Assembly (NCBI RefSeq): GCF_006385135.1 | Contig: NZ_CP041025.1 | Location: forward strand, 3,255,501-3,319,500 | Direction: 5' to 3' | Source: Paremcibacter congregatus | GTDB lineage: Bacteria; Pseudomonadota; Alphaproteobacteria; Sphingomonadales; Emcibacteraceae | DNA length: 64,000 bases | Part shown: one piece after another, positions 5,586 through 10,135 of the stretch | Position numbering within the stretch: the first letter of the stretch is position 1 | How the letters are laid out: every line of letters begins with the position of its first letter | The notes under the pieces: generated by a model | Told to the model about the DNA's origin: nothing | Databases searched by the model: none | Seen by the model: only the letters and a program-made list of their open reading frames with translations | Translations under genes and position numbers: made by a program

Positions 5586-6446
5586 ATGGATATCACCCAG
5601 GTCAGAACCTTTATCGCCGTGGCCGATACAGGCAGTTTTATCGCCGCCGCCGACCGGGTTCATGTCACCCAATCGACCGTCAGCATCCGAATCCGTAATC
5701 TGGAAGATCAGCTCGGCACTTATCTGTTTGAACGCAGCAAACAGGGCGCCAGCCTGACGATCGCCGGCAAGCAATTTCTCAAGCACGCCATTGCCCTGAC
5801 CAAGATATGGGATCAGGCCCGTCTGGATGTTGGCATCGGGGAAGAACATGAGACAATTTTGCGCATTGGCGGTCAGGTCAGCCTGTGGGACGGTTTCCTG
5901 ATGAAGTTGCTGCCCTGGATGCGCGTGCATGCCCCCGAAATCGCCATCCGCACGGAAATGGGCTATTCCCCGGACCTGACGCAAAAACTGTCGGAGGGGT
6001 CCATTGATATCGGCATCATGTACCGGCCGGAACATCGCCCAGGCTTCAAGATCAAACAGATTTTTGAAGATGAAATGATCCTTGTATCTTCACAGGCGGA
6101 AGATAAAGACATCTTTGAAAATGATTATATTTTTGTCAATTGGGGACCGGAATTTCTCAGTGATCATGCGTTGAACTTCCCCGATATGAAAACGCCGCGT
6201 GTCTCGCTTGACCTCGGCACCCTGGGGATTGAATATCTGCTGCTGTCCCCGGCCAGCGGGTATTTCCCGCGACGTATCGCCGAGCCCCTGATCCAGGAAG
6301 AACGGGTGCGGCTGGTCGACTGGGCGCCGAAATTCAATTATCCGGCCTATATATCCTATGCCGATGACATTGATAGTGATCTGATGAATATCATATTGAA
6401 AGGCATCAAGGTGATCTCCCGGGATGTGGGACACAACCCCCTGTAG
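5586..6446 (+). CDS. LysR-family transcriptional regulator
   Basis: DNA-binding regulator of about 286 residues. The N-terminal winged helix-turn-helix is clear: MDITQVRTFIAVADTGSF, then AAADRVHVTQSTVSIRI as the recognition region, at about residues 1-60. The remainder is a type 2 periplasmic-binding-fold effector domain. ATG at 5586 is chosen because LysR proteins normally begin at this point; ATG at 5565 would add seven residues. The neighbouring operon that a LysR protein normally controls from a divergent promoter is not obvious: the divergent gene is the small hypothetical protein ending at 5232. The effector is unknown. A candidate -10 TATAAT lies at 5535-5540 without a good -35. Confidence 0.9.
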   Translation: MDITQVRTFIAVADTGSFIAAADRVHVTQSTVSIRIRNLEDQLGTYLFERSKQGASLTIAGKQFLKHAIALTKIWDQARLDVGIGEEHETILRIGGQVSLWDGFLMKLLPWMRVHAPEIAIRTEMGYSPDLTQKLSEGSIDIGIMYRPEHRPGFKIKQIFEDEMILVSSQAEDKDIFENDYIFVNWGPEFLSDHALNFPDMKTPRVSLDLGTLGIEYLLLSPASGYFPRRIAEPLIQEERVRLVDWAPKFNYPAYISYADDIDSDLMNIILKGIKVISRDVGHNPL

Positions 6447-6463
6447 GCCAGTTGCGGAAACAG

Positions 6464-6508
6464 GCCGCTCAGAAATTCCTTTCATGACAAAAGGAATTAA
6501 AGAGCGGC
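6464..6508. terminator. long hairpin between convergent genes
   Basis: Arms GCCGCTC (6464-6470) and GAGCGGC (6502-6508) enclose a second perfect pair, AATTCCTTT and AAAGGAATT. It sits between the 3' ends of the LysR gene and the convergent small gene at 6543. There is no U tract on either side, so it may be an RNA-stabilising or Rho-assisted end rather than a classical intrinsic terminator. Confidence 0.5.
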
Positions 6509-6542
6509 GCGTCTCCCAGTTCGGCCTCAACTGTTTCGGGAA

Positions 6543-6734
6543 TTACAGGAAGTTCTCTGTAAAATCCTCTTTTCTTGATTTAGGACGGCGCGGGCGTTTG
6601 CGCCATTTTGACCCGAGTTTATCCTCAAGAAGATCTTCGTAATAATCGTCATCTTCATAGCCTGCGAATTCATAGGCATCTACCATGTCAAAGAATTCTG
6701 CATTGCTGAGAAAATCCATTTTATTGTGTTTCAT
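6543..6734 (-). CDS. small two-charge hypothetical protein
   Basis: A 63-residue protein starting MKHNKMDF. The first half is strongly acidic (EDDDYYEDLLED) and the second strongly basic (SKWRKRPRRPKSRK). There is no membrane segment or signal peptide. ATG at 6734 is chosen because GGAG lies 7 nt upstream (GGAGAAAGCTTATG); the longer frame from 6788 has no such site. The gene stands alone between AT-rich spacers and converges on the LysR gene. I do not recognise a family. The charge split suggests binding to nucleic acid or to a charged partner, which is speculation. Confidence 0.6.
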   Translation of the reverse strand: MKHNKMDFLSNAEFFDMVDAYEFAGYEDDDYYEDLLEDKLGSKWRKRPRRPKSRKEDFTENFL

Positions 6735-6799
6735 AAGCTTTCTCCGCCTGTTTACGCTCAAAATTCCTCCGAAGAATATCAAAATCAAAATATTTGAAA

Positions 6800-6898
6800 A
6801 TCGAATTTATTACATGATTGTTATTCGATAAATAAATATTAGGGCCAAATAAAACGCGTAATTCTCATGACAAGAATGTTTATATTCAATTATCGAAT
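6800..6898. repeat. ATCGAAT motif cluster in a spacer
   Basis: The 7-mer ATCGAAT occurs at 6800-6806 and 6892-6898, and its reverse complement ATTCGAT at 6823-6829. The first and third copies in position order form an inverted pair centred at 6814. The cluster lies in the AT-rich spacer between two divergent small genes (6734 and 6987). Further copies lie upstream of the LysR gene (5529-5535) and of the TadG-like gene (8800-8806). It could be a regulator site; nothing in the sequence identifies the binding protein. Confidence 0.4.
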
Positions 6899-6986
6899 GA
6901 TAACCATGCAATTAAATCTCTTTATTCTGGGGTCATCCTTATGATAATTCCCCCACTTAATTTAAACTTCATCAGGACATGAGAAG

Positions 6987-7265
6987 ATGAAAAACTATAT
7001 GACACCCGCCTTGTTCGCCGCCGCCTTTATTTCTGTCGGCACCGTTGCGCACGCCGCTGATCTGAAGAATATGGATGCGGTCAGCTACACCCTGTATGTG
7101 GAAACAGAAGAGGCGACAAAAACTGTCGTTATTGGCCCGAATGAAACGATTAAAGATATCTGTGTTGACTGCTATATCGCTATTGAAGACAACGACAGTG
7201 ATATCTCCATCGCGACAGAGCCCAAACTCGTCATTAAAAATGGTCAACTGGTTATTGAGGAATAG
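6987..7265 (+). CDS. small exported protein, unknown family
   Basis: A 92-residue protein with a Sec signal peptide: MKNYMTPALFAAAFISVG, with likely cleavage after AHA (AHA|ADLK, about residue 23). The mature part, about 69 residues, is acidic, has a DICVDCY motif with two cysteines, and looks mainly beta (VSYTLYVETEEA, KLVIKNGQLVI). It starts at ATG 6987 with GAGAAG directly upstream and AGGA a little further. The protein is likely periplasmic or outer-surface; the two cysteines three residues apart could bind metal or form a disulfide. Downstream, before the decarboxylase gene, is a strong inverted repeat with a T run that may end this transcript. Family not recognised. Confidence 0.7.
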   Translation: MKNYMTPALFAAAFISVGTVAHAADLKNMDAVSYTLYVETEEATKTVVIGPNETIKDICVDCYIAIEDNDSDISIATEPKLVIKNGQLVIEE

Positions 7266-7292
7266 GCAGGACCTTTTCTTTTCATAAAAGCT

Positions 7293-7359
7293 CCCCCTTG
7301 CCCCTTGGGTATCTGTAAGGTTCAGCATATCTTTGTGGTTCAAGGGGGGTGCTTTTTTT
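7293..7359 (+). terminator. intrinsic terminator or attenuator before the decarboxylase gene
   Basis: CCCCCTTG (7293-7300) pairs perfectly with CAAGGGGG (7341-7348), followed by GTGC and seven T (7353-7359). A second copy, CCCCTTG, at 7301-7307 can compete for the same 3' arm. The T run ends 19 nt before the ATG of the ornithine decarboxylase gene. It can be read as the terminator of the small exported protein gene or as a leader attenuator of the decarboxylase. The loop is about 40 nt, longer than usual. Confidence 0.6.
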
Positions 7360-7378
7360 GCATAGGATTTACACCAAC

Positions 7379-8662
7379 ATGTTCACCGATCCATCTGAGC
7401 ACCGCACAGATCATGCCGTCTGCGCCTTCACCCTTTCCGACAACCAGATCTCACCGGATGTCAGCGAGACACTTGATATCAGTCACGATATGACAGATCA
7501 GGACATCCGCGACCTGCGGCCGGCGCTGCCGGTGCCTTTGCTGATGCCTGATGTGGTGCAGCAAAAGACCACAGATTTCGTTCGGCATTTCACCGGACAC
7601 GTGATGTATGCGGTGAAATGCAATCCCGACCATGTTTTTCTCGACGCCATTTATCAGGCGGGCGTGCGCCATTTTGATGTGGCTTCTATCGGTGAAATCC
7701 GCCGGATCAGCGCCCGTTTCCCCGATGCTGTCCAATATTTCATGCATCCGATCAAAGCGCCGGAAGCCATTCGTGAAGCCTATATCAATCACGGGGTACG
7801 GGCGTATGTACTTGATTATGACGGTGAACTGAAAAAGATCCGCCATGAAACCAATGACGCCCCTGATCTGGAACTGATTGTCCGGCTGGCGATCCCGAAG
7901 GAAACAGAACAGCGTGACGTGGCCACCGACTTTTCCAGCAAGTTCGGGGCGCAATTTGATCAGGCTGTCAATCTTCTGAAAGCCTGCCGTCCTCATTGCG
8001 CCATCCTGGGCGTCAGCTTTCATGTCGGTACCCAGTGCCAGGACCCGGACCGTTACGCCCAGGCCGTCGCCTATGCCGCCCGGGTGATTGAAGAAAGCGG
8101 CGTTGTCGTCGAAACCCTTGATGTTGGCGGAGGTTTTCCGGCCGATCTGGAGAGCGCCACACCATTGCCCCCCGTACAGGCCTTTACCCAAAGCATCGCC
8201 GATGCGGTGTCGGCAAACGGCTTGAATCACATGCATCTGCTGTGTGAAGTTGGCCGCGGCCTTGTCGCCGGGGGCGGGGCCCTGATCGTGCGTGTCGAAG
8301 GCCGTAAAGAAGACCTGCTGTATTTGAACGACGGCACCTACGGCGGCCTTTTCGAAGCCGGTGGCGCCATCGGCCTGCCTTACCCCGCGCATTTGATACG
8401 CCGGGAAGAACGGGCATTTCAGGGACAAATCCGGGCCTTCCGGTTTGCCGGTCCCACCTGTGATTCAGTTGATATGATGCAGGGTCCTTTTATGTTGCCG
8501 GAAGATGTGCAGGTCGGTGACTGGATCAGGCTTGATCAGCTCGGGGCGTATGGTGAAGTCTCCCGCACTGATTTTAACGGTTTCGGCGCCGTCCAGAAAA
8601 TCATTTTGCGGCCCCAAAACGCCGCACCGGCAGAAGCCGACAAAACAGCGGTCCACGCCTGA
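7379..8662 (+). CDS. type III PLP-dependent ornithine decarboxylase
   Basis: Converts ornithine to putrescine (or a close basic amino acid to its diamine) with pyridoxal phosphate; 427 residues. It has the alanine-racemase-fold, eukaryotic-type architecture rather than the SpeC/SpeF fold. The PLP lysine lies in MYAVKCNP (Lys80). The barrel holds SFHVGTQC, DVGGGFP for the phosphate, and CEVGRGLVAGG. The C-terminal beta domain carries LNDGTYGG and GPTCDSVD, whose Cys and Asp complete the partner active site in the dimer. These match ornithine decarboxylase more than diaminopimelate decarboxylase. ATG 7379 is chosen (AGGA 11 nt upstream); a GTG at 7349 would start inside the terminator hairpin. 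No other polyamine gene is adjacent. A lysine/ornithine dual specificity cannot be excluded. Confidence 0.88.
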   Translation: MFTDPSEHRTDHAVCAFTLSDNQISPDVSETLDISHDMTDQDIRDLRPALPVPLLMPDVVQQKTTDFVRHFTGHVMYAVKCNPDHVFLDAIYQAGVRHFDVASIGEIRRISARFPDAVQYFMHPIKAPEAIREAYINHGVRAYVLDYDGELKKIRHETNDAPDLELIVRLAIPKETEQRDVATDFSSKFGAQFDQAVNLLKACRPHCAILGVSFHVGTQCQDPDRYAQAVAYAARVIEESGVVVETLDVGGGFPADLESATPLPPVQAFTQSIADAVSANGLNHMHLLCEVGRGLVAGGGALIVRVEGRKEDLLYLNDGTYGGLFEAGGAIGLPYPAHLIRREERAFQGQIRAFRFAGPTCDSVDMMQGPFMLPEDVQVGDWIRLDQLGAYGEVSRTDFNGFGAVQKIILRPQNAAPAEADKTAVHA

Positions 8663-8824: not shown

Positions 8825-10135
8825 ATGGCGAACATCGTCCAAAAATACCTTTTGCAGCAGCTCGGCCGATTAAAAAAATCGACTTCTGGCGCGGCGCTGG
8901 TTTACTTTGCGATCCTGGTTCCTTTAATCGCCGGATTTGCCGGCTTGGGATTTGATGCGACAATGTGGTTTATGCAAAAACGCCAAATGCAGACCGCAGC
9001 TGATTCCTCGGCTCTGGCCGCGGCTTACGCCTTATCTAAAGACCAGACCGATCAGGAGATTATCCTGGCAGCCACAAAAGACGCCGAAGCCAATAATTTC
9101 ACCACCGGCAACGGCAACAGCCTGTCATTGACCACTCCACCCGTCACCGGGGGATATGCCGGCCAGTCAAACTATGTCATGGTCAAGTTAAACCACCCTG
9201 CGGAACTGGTGTTCACCAAGATGCTCGATATAAAGGACATCGAGATCAGAACAACGGCCACGGCCGGTATTCTGAAAGTAGGCGAGCATTGCATTCTCGC
9301 ACTGGATGAAACCATGGACAAGGCGCTGGAATTCTCCGGGACCTCTGACGTGGACATCAATTGTGGTGTTGCCTCCAATTCCAACAGCACTGAATCCATC
9401 TACCTTAATGGCACCGCCACATTATCCGCCAACCCTTCGGCCCAGGCCTACGGCGATATTTATCAGGGCACGAACGCCACACTGAACACCCCGAACCCAA
9501 TTCAGCCCCTGTCACAACGGGCCATCGATCCTTATGGCCCGGAAGGACGCGACCTTGAGGTACCGACATTGCCGTCCATCTGTATCAATACCGGAAGCCT
9601 TCAGATCAAATTAGGCGATCCCGATCCGCTTCCTGGCCGTTATTGCGGTGATATGACCTTCAATGCCAATGCAGACACCACACTGGCGCCCGGTGTTTAT
9701 ATTATTGATGGTGGGGACCTGACCATCCGGGGCGGCGCCACACTGAGCGGCACGGGCGTCACCTTCGTTCTGACCGCCGCCGATCCCGATGATATCGGGA
9801 CAGTCGACATCGGAGGTGGAGCGACAATTGACCTGACAGCGCCAAACCATGGCGATTATGCCGGCATCGTTTTCTTTCAGGACCCCCGCGCGCTCTACAC
9901 AGAAGGCGATAACAAGTTTCTCGGTGGCCCCGCGATGAACATCAAGGGTGCCGTTTATTTCCCTGGTCAGGAATTGCGGTTCAGCGGCGGATCAAGCACC
10001 TCTTCCGGGTGCCTGCAACTGCTTGGCCGCAAGGTCACCTTTACCGGAAACTCGAAACTCTACAACGATCAGTCCGATTGCGCTTTTCTCGGGATCGAGA
10101 AAATTTCAAGAACCCTGGTAACCATGGTGGAATAG
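8825..10135 (+). CDS. TadG-like pilus assembly protein
   Basis: A 436-residue exported protein. Residues 18-60 form a TadE/TadG pseudopilin-like N-terminus: a basic stretch (GRLKKSTSGAALVYF), a hydrophobic helix at about 25-46 and the hallmark MQTAADSSALAAAYAL. The rest is a long Gly/Thr/Asn-rich, beta-rich domain with several cysteines. It would be anchored in the inner membrane with the bulk in the periplasm. In tight-adherence (Flp pilus) loci such proteins are minor components. Here it leads three genes (gaps 4 and 11 nt) followed by no ATPase, secretin, prepilin peptidase or Flp pilin. Its substrate and machinery must lie elsewhere. Confidence 0.85.
   Translation: MANIVQKYLLQQLGRLKKSTSGAALVYFAILVPLIAGFAGLGFDATMWFMQKRQMQTAADSSALAAAYALSKDQTDQEIILAATKDAEANNFTTGNGNSLSLTTPPVTGGYAGQSNYVMVKLNHPAELVFTKMLDIKDIEIRTTATAGILKVGEHCILALDETMDKALEFSGTSDVDINCGVASNSNSTESIYLNGTATLSANPSAQAYGDIYQGTNATLNTPNPIQPLSQRAIDPYGPEGRDLEVPTLPSICINTGSLQIKLGDPDPLPGRYCGDMTFNANADTTLAPGVYIIDGGDLTIRGGATLSGTGVTFVLTAADPDDIGTVDIGGGATIDLTAPNHGDYAGIVFFQDPRALYTEGDNKFLGGPAMNIKGAVYFPGQELRFSGGSSTSSGCLQLLGRKVTFTGNSKLYNDQSDCAFLGIEKISRTLVTMVE

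Follow-up and report, generated by a model that had tools for sequence, protein, structure and literature searches.

In the window (the whole stretch of 64,000 nt of DNA analysed here), a gene of the ornithine decarboxylase type (ODC) is preceded by a GC-rich hairpin and a T run, and the best reading of this arrangement is a rebuilt ar45-type leader whose terminator limits ODC transcription, perhaps conditionally. The underlying claim, that the hairpin is an intrinsic terminator of the ODC mRNA leader and not the plain 3′ end of the gene upstream, has in our estimation about an even chance of being right. Among the genomes compared, the one called G005 is the only one of the same genus with this gene, and it serves as the main reference below.

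The hairpin before the decarboxylase gene

The features of the region are the following:

6987–7265, + strand: gene for a small exported-type protein of 92 aa (‘exported’ by look), ending 27 nt before the 5′ arm
7269–7323, + strand: candidate early helix P0, GGACCUU (7269–7275) with AAGGUUC (7317–7323), from folding only
7293–7300, + strand: terminator 5′ arm (CCCCCUUG), from sequence and folding; the predicted stem reaches outwards to 7286
7301–7307, + strand: second arm CCCCUUG, a tandem copy of 7294–7300 and a weaker partner of the same 3′ arm
7341–7348, + strand: terminator 3′ arm (CAAGGGGG), from sequence and folding; the predicted stem reaches 7356
7353–7359, + strand: T run of seven T, from sequence
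7364–7367, + strand: Shine–Dalgarno-like AGGA; the surrounding GCATAGGNTTTACA is common to the G005 leader
7379–8662, + strand: ODC gene, from Pfam, structure matches and an ATG common to G005

The original prediction had placed the terminator arms CCCCCTTG and CAAGGGGG at these positions, followed by seven T, with 19 nt between the end of the run and the ATG at 7379, and the sequence reads exactly so. An additional G and TGC (7349–7352) lie between the 3′ arm and the run, and the predicted stem extends outwards through the pairing of AAAAGC with GCUUUU (GC/GC, then AAAA/UUUU). Folding of 7283–7366 gives −31.7 kcal/mol against −22.3 ± 2.6 for shuffled sequences (z −3.55; 1 of 200 shuffles doing as well), while the longer piece 7266–7378 reaches a z of only −2.03, with 5 of 200 shuffles doing as well.

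A GC-rich stem followed by a U run stops RNA polymerase, and such a stable stem directly before a U run is found at 7293–7359. The loop, at 40 nt, is not the short one (3–8 nt) of an intrinsic terminator, and since a consensus terminator scan allows only that range, the hairpin is missing from its output. Long loops are known in attenuators; the length weakens the case for a plain terminator more than that for a terminator as such, and it is no proof of regulation.

How unusual the hairpin is was judged in 464,000 bases of its own genome (the window and another 20 segments of 20 kb each, with 401 genes called), candidates being uninterrupted stems of 7 or more pairs, 5 or more of them G–C, with a loop of at most 60 nt and 6 or more T out of 8. 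This sample holds 103 candidates, 43 of them intergenic and 41 of those flanked by genes on both sides. Within the 41, the window hairpin has the longest loop, and only three loops exceed 20 nt (22, 39 and 40 nt). Of the 19 that precede a gene of their own orientation, it is also the nearest to a start codon (19 nt, then 28, 49 and 94), by gene calls that are rough throughout: the scan picked an earlier in-frame codon as the ODC start (distance −2) and called a reverse-strand frame, not the exported-protein gene, as the gene before the hairpin. Both extremes speak against a reading in which the exported-protein gene simply has its usual terminator here, ODC having arrived behind this hairpin by rearrangement and being expressed at a low, constant level through leaky read-through. 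Constant leakage needs fewer parts than an attenuator; on balance, we hold this reading to be somewhat unlikely, and further evidence on it is given with the comparisons between genomes.

Alternative pairings in the leader

The second CCCCTTG, proposed earlier as a competing arm, completes an exact 7-nt tandem repeat (CCCCTTG CCCCTTG, 7294–7307) and can indeed pair with the same 3′ arm, but energetically it is no rival: the alternative folds at −22.1 against −31.7 kcal/mol, about 10 kcal/mol worse, and was ruled out in that role. With a pair probability of about 7e-7 besides the weaker energy, the second arm competes on paper only.

Two other forms are predicted to arise while the RNA grows. 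P0 has a predicted probability of 0.975 once the RNA reaches 7330 and of 0.256 at 7340; it crosses the terminator helix and starts 3 nt past the stop codon of the exported-protein gene. The second candidate early form is a hairpin at 7299–7311.

Folding also bears on the idea that the hairpin terminates little and instead serves to stabilise or process the ODC mRNA, or to regulate how accessible its ribosome binding site is. In its favour, the Shine–Dalgarno GGA is mostly paired in the predicted 7283–7400 ensemble (unpaired probabilities 0.05, 0.05 and 0.14), and the best fold of the G005 leader pairs GGUU of the Shine–Dalgarno region with AACC. A GC-rich stem directly before seven T is, however, the textbook signature of an intrinsic terminator, and we regard this alternative as improbable.

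The decarboxylase gene and its transcription

The gene at 7379–8662 matches Pfam PF02784 and PF00278, and the solved structures that it matches best, 2plj and 5gjm, are lysine/ornithine decarboxylases, which places it in the ODC/LDC type; as an NCBIfam search returned no model at cut-off, ornithine is its presumed substrate. The ATG is common to G005, with which the first 52 residues align ungapped (20 identical), and over the first 50 codons the mismatches number 29, 17 and 36 at codon positions 1–3. Directly downstream lies a Tad-like pilus-assembly gene (8825–10135), followed, by look, by two additional small TadE-like frames.

Little room for a promoter had been noted between the T run and the ATG, and no promoter-like site stands out there. 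A promoter scan of 6400–8468 on both strands found no site of 9/12 or better, and the best match in the gap scores 7/12 with an 18-nt spacer, a background score reached in 56 of 124 comparison stretches of the window. With nothing promoter-like standing out in the gap, ODC likely depends on transcriptional read-through, whichever way the hairpin is interpreted. A promoter of its own that overlaps the hairpin, the terminator then only insulating ODC from upstream transcription, might use TAGGAT (7363–7368) as a possible, poor −10, or be of a type that such scans would miss; set against the background-level match and the lack of any 9/12 site nearby, this arrangement seems to us very unlikely.

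ar45-type leaders before ODC in related genomes

Sixty genomes, including the window's own, were searched, and 22 of them have a close ODC homologue (E ≤ 1e-60). An ar45-type core (CGCACGUGCC-NN-UGG...GGUUAYGYAACGACG) precedes ODC in 9 of the 22 (covariance model R1, E < 1e-4), a pseudoknot-like leader in 7, all seven being rows of its own model (R2), and neither type in the other 6, which include the window's genome. At this threshold, R1 has no match in 13 of the 22, own genome included, which counts against the best reading.

R1 was built from 11 leaders; 8 of 19 leaders (L001, L035, L037, L038, L042, L068, L070 and L076) were omitted from its alignment to fit the short form, owing to long insertions or divergence. 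Searched against the 60 genomes at E < 1e-4, it hits 10 places; each precedes an ODC match, and 8 belong to sequences used as model rows. It also matches 10 of 48 sources, not model rows, at E ≤ 0.0014 (L001, L035, L037, L038, L040, L068, L069, L070, L074 and L076). Across the 11 rows, 95.5% of the cells in its pairs are paired, against 20.9–46.4% when the pairs are slid, and 10 of 500 shuffles do as well; both sides have changed in 2 of 10 pairs, a thin covariation given that 4 of the 10 never vary. After the core, a run of at least four T is found in 14 of the 19 leaders and is absent in L001, L006, L042, L068 and L076.

Rfam's own ar45 model (RF02347) has no match over cut-off in the 60 genomes, including the window's own; presumably, its longer inner arms make it miss the short form. 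R1 and the Rfam model match the same place in L035, L037 and L038, not in L036, and in view of this shared place the short ODC-leader form most likely belongs to the same family as ar45. At all four loci looked at (L035–L038), the Rfam speF leader follows immediately on Rfam ar45, which finishes in a T run with an ODC-like frame behind it. By this arrangement, the RNA that Rfam catalogues as an sRNA gene may be what an ODC leader yields on early termination.

A short upstream frame with a good Shine–Dalgarno sequence lies between core and ODC at eight loci (L008–L013, L015 and L039) and is a possible ODC leader peptide. Five of these frames (L010, L011, L013, L015 and L039) end alike in VLDxxSP, and those of L008, L009 and L012 have little in common but SP.

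The window leader against the leaders of its relatives

In the window, no ar45 is found at the Rfam gathering threshold, nor up to E 10 in 6800–7700, and none in the window's own genome; at gathering and up to E 10 alike, the window's leader gives chance matches only. A hidden ar45 core was rejected, as the R1 score there is 5.6 bits (E 1), confined to the T run, and R1 has no match in the own genome (G000).

In plain sequence, the leader is nevertheless collinear with those of ODC in two relatives, over a region that reaches back some 90 nt from the ATG. Compared ungapped from −90 to −21, it agrees with G005 at 29 of 70 positions, register 0 being the best of 81, and with G022 at 30 of 70, the best of 81 registers being −3; between G005 and G022, which both have the core, 30 of 70 positions match, the best register being −1. 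The reference set consisted of 727 ATG-started leaders from the own-genome sample, the window's included and many of them not those of real genes. Only the window leader attains its full-length local score against G005, and 3 leaders attain that against G022; once the last 20 nt are removed, the counts are 5 (G005) and 8 (G022), and for ungapped comparison within three registers 13 and 4. Both scores jointly are reached in either form by the window leader alone, which does not amount to two independent tests because the two references are related. Among 1000 shuffles, those as good in local alignment number 0 (G005) and 2 (G022) at full length and 26 and 4 without the last 20 nt, and in global alignment 2 and 6, and 121 and 5, respectively. 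Once those 20 nt are set aside, the resemblance to G005 is modest, which also tells against the best reading. No similarity of the window leader to L001 emerged from the shuffle test.

We read this, short of proof, as a sign that the window leader shares descent with the ODC leaders of its two closest homologues, the core having been lost. From the collinearity, ODC and the hairpin region appear to have moved together, contrary to what a terminator belonging to the exported-protein gene would lead one to expect.

Conservation of the stem itself is mixed. The exact stem is largely not conserved in relatives, an outcome that the original prediction had named as refuting it; only the helix of the second arm is matched in register, and in one genome, G005, whose GCCCU(U)GG/CCAGGGC lies in line with the second arm and the 3′ arm of the window leader, so that the second arm, not the first, has a counterpart. 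With that helix enforced, the G005 leader folds at −23.2 kcal/mol, and with the R1 pairs enforced at −20.8, its best fold (−25.5) pairing both arms of the ar45-type core. G005 has TTTATCTT and no run of four T after the core, and the terminator is therefore not conserved within the genus, a further point against the best reading. The idea of a leader attenuator, put forward in the original prediction, thus gains from the ar45-type leaders and T runs counted above, from the collinear leader and from the separation of the exported-protein gene from ODC in five relatives, and loses the conservation of the exact stem.

In L001, a GGTTACAGTTG-ATG context like that of the ODC starts of G005 and G022 opens a 53-codon upstream frame (about 2688–2849). 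Judging by this start context, the N-terminal extension of the window's ODC (7379) may derive from a former leader peptide.

The upstream gene and its neighbourhood

Orthologues of the exported-protein gene were found at E < 1e-17 in five relatives (G005, G016, G020, G022 and G025) among the 60 genomes, own included. None of the five has an ODC within 1.5 kb on either side of the orthologue, and any close ODC sits on another contig. A role for this gene as a leader peptide of the SpeFL type was rejected, given its 92 codons and the fact that it is not beside ODC in these relatives.

G005 keeps the order of a LysR gene (82.6% identical), a small reverse-strand gene and the exported-protein gene, followed by a convergent gene that we take, by look, to be an M42-type peptidase; its ODC is flanked by genes that are presumably transporter-like and patatin-like. 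ODC and the exported-protein gene may accordingly have become neighbours in the lineage of the window, or else have been parted in others. A junction that differs between relatives, with ODC behind the exported-protein gene in the window, and a convergent gene there and ODC on another contig in G005, is what an ordinary terminator with a newly arrived ODC would predict, and hairpins can be read after the orthologue in G016 (L063, with TTTT) and in G022 (L062, with a weak tail). The sequence behind the orthologue in the five relatives is, on the other hand, unlike the window hairpin by reading.

Upstream, an 81-codon frame divergent from the exported-protein gene (6543–6788, − strand) matches nothing in Pfam; G005 has an equivalent frame in the corresponding position (L061, 1068–1313), GSKWRKRPRR occurring in both. 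The divergent promoter region holds a long imperfect inverted repeat (6800–6921), noticed via a chance miRNA match (E 8.9), which may represent operator sites.

A pseudoknot-like leader in a related family

A second type of ODC leader was found in the related family f6 and, as a variant recognised by eye, in G016 and G017 of the window's own family. By motif reading, it lies at:

L018, 1354–1434: pseudoknot-like leader (f6)
L019, 1402–1500, and L020, 1364–1467: pseudoknot-like leader (G016 and G017)

All 18 f6 loci sampled, the best-scoring 18 of far more f6 genomes, read CUGCC-CCAU-GGGACUUCC-AACCGCAA-GGCAG...GGAGGUCCC, with a UUG start after it by reading; none of three loci of family f5 has the motif, and a motif match in L014 was dropped as lying outside the leader pattern. 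Two helices cross in this leader, the second covering the ODC Shine–Dalgarno sequence. In 20 sequences chosen by the motif, the five pairs of the first helix are kept in all 20 and all nine pairs of the second in 16, with changes of one second-helix pair (UA, CG, UG) and one first-helix pair (CG, UA). Rfam has no family at the site in L018, L019, L020, L021 or L023, and searches up to E 1 in L018, L019, L023 and L050 gave chance matches elsewhere only. A limited literature search found no paper on it. The RNA is a candidate translation switch for ODC.

For the window, a degenerate form of this pseudoknot was rejected: R2 gives 4.0 bits (E 1.4), the second of 15 chance-level rows, and has no match in the own genome (G000). 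The window leader has TGCCCC-TGGG in common with this type and likewise precedes an ODC homologue, whereas the pseudoknot-like leader covers the Shine–Dalgarno sequence and needs no T run.

Relation to known decarboxylase leaders

The window element resembles ar45 (RF02347) and its short form R1 in standing upstream of an ODC-type gene and in its hairpin followed by a T run, as in many members, and the core is present at the two closest homologues of the window gene. It differs in lacking the core (CGCACGUGCC...GUAACGACG), which by model is absent from the window and its own genome, and in having another stem and loop. ar45 has been in print since about 2012. In the portions of the reports cited here, Bartonella ar45 is expressed apart from the speF leader, Hfq binding in Sinorhizobium is noted and the role is left open (PMC7717549), and ar45 is found in Methylosinus with an unclear role (PMC12403871).

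With the speF leader (RF00518), in print since 2005 (PMC1273637), the element shares its place before an alphaproteobacterial ODC gene, while no match is found in the window at gathering or in the own genome. In that report, the extended speF element showed no binding of L-ornithine, putrescine or spermidine (Corbino et al. 2005, PMC1273637). The suggested response to polyamines or ornithine thus finds no echo: nothing in the present data points to either, and this related element reportedly binds none of the three compounds just named (PMC1273637).

The enterobacterial speF leader with SpeFL/orf34 offers a parallel in premature termination within an ODC mRNA leader, set by translation of an upstream frame. 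According to the cited portion of the work, the Salmonella leader acts via orf34, a 34-codon leader peptide, and Rho, and the termination is Rho-dependent, the authors having found no intrinsic terminator (PMC6386406); ornithine stalling at speFL is cited in the relevant part of another report (PMC7815308). Unlike the SpeFL system, the window has an upstream gene of 92 codons, one that in relatives stands apart from ODC. Taken together, the window element would work like a leader terminator of this group, and by the models of ar45 and speF it is a member of neither. To our knowledge, alphaproteobacterial ODC leaders are without a known signal.

A model for the leader and its implications

Under the best reading, transcription would begin within the exported-protein gene, ahead of it, or immediately 5′ of the hairpin; most transcripts would stop at 7353–7359, and only read-through would yield ODC. 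During RNA growth, the early forms, P0 (7269–7275/7317–7323) or the 7299–7311 hairpin, would compete with the 5′ arm of the terminator, and the amount of ODC would depend on whatever stabilises or blocks these forms. Ribosomes at the exported-protein gene's stop codon are one example, since a ribosome there would cover the 5′ side of P0. Translation of the upstream gene or a ligand could, in this model, set read-through via P0. A fuller scenario, which we offer tentatively and consider rather unlikely in its entirety, is that a core-less ar45-type leader was rebuilt into an attenuator by the 7-nt CCCCTTG duplication (7294–7307), that one 3′ arm serves both the older second-arm helix, which has its match in G005, and the new terminator helix, and that upstream ribosomes or a ligand decide whether 7269–7275/7317–7323 blocks the terminator.

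The locus by itself is of specialist interest. A core-less lineage that keeps the position, the distance and the terminator hints at which parts of ODC leaders are dispensable, and it speaks for considering ar45 both as a candidate cis-acting attenuator of ODC and as a candidate trans-acting sRNA.
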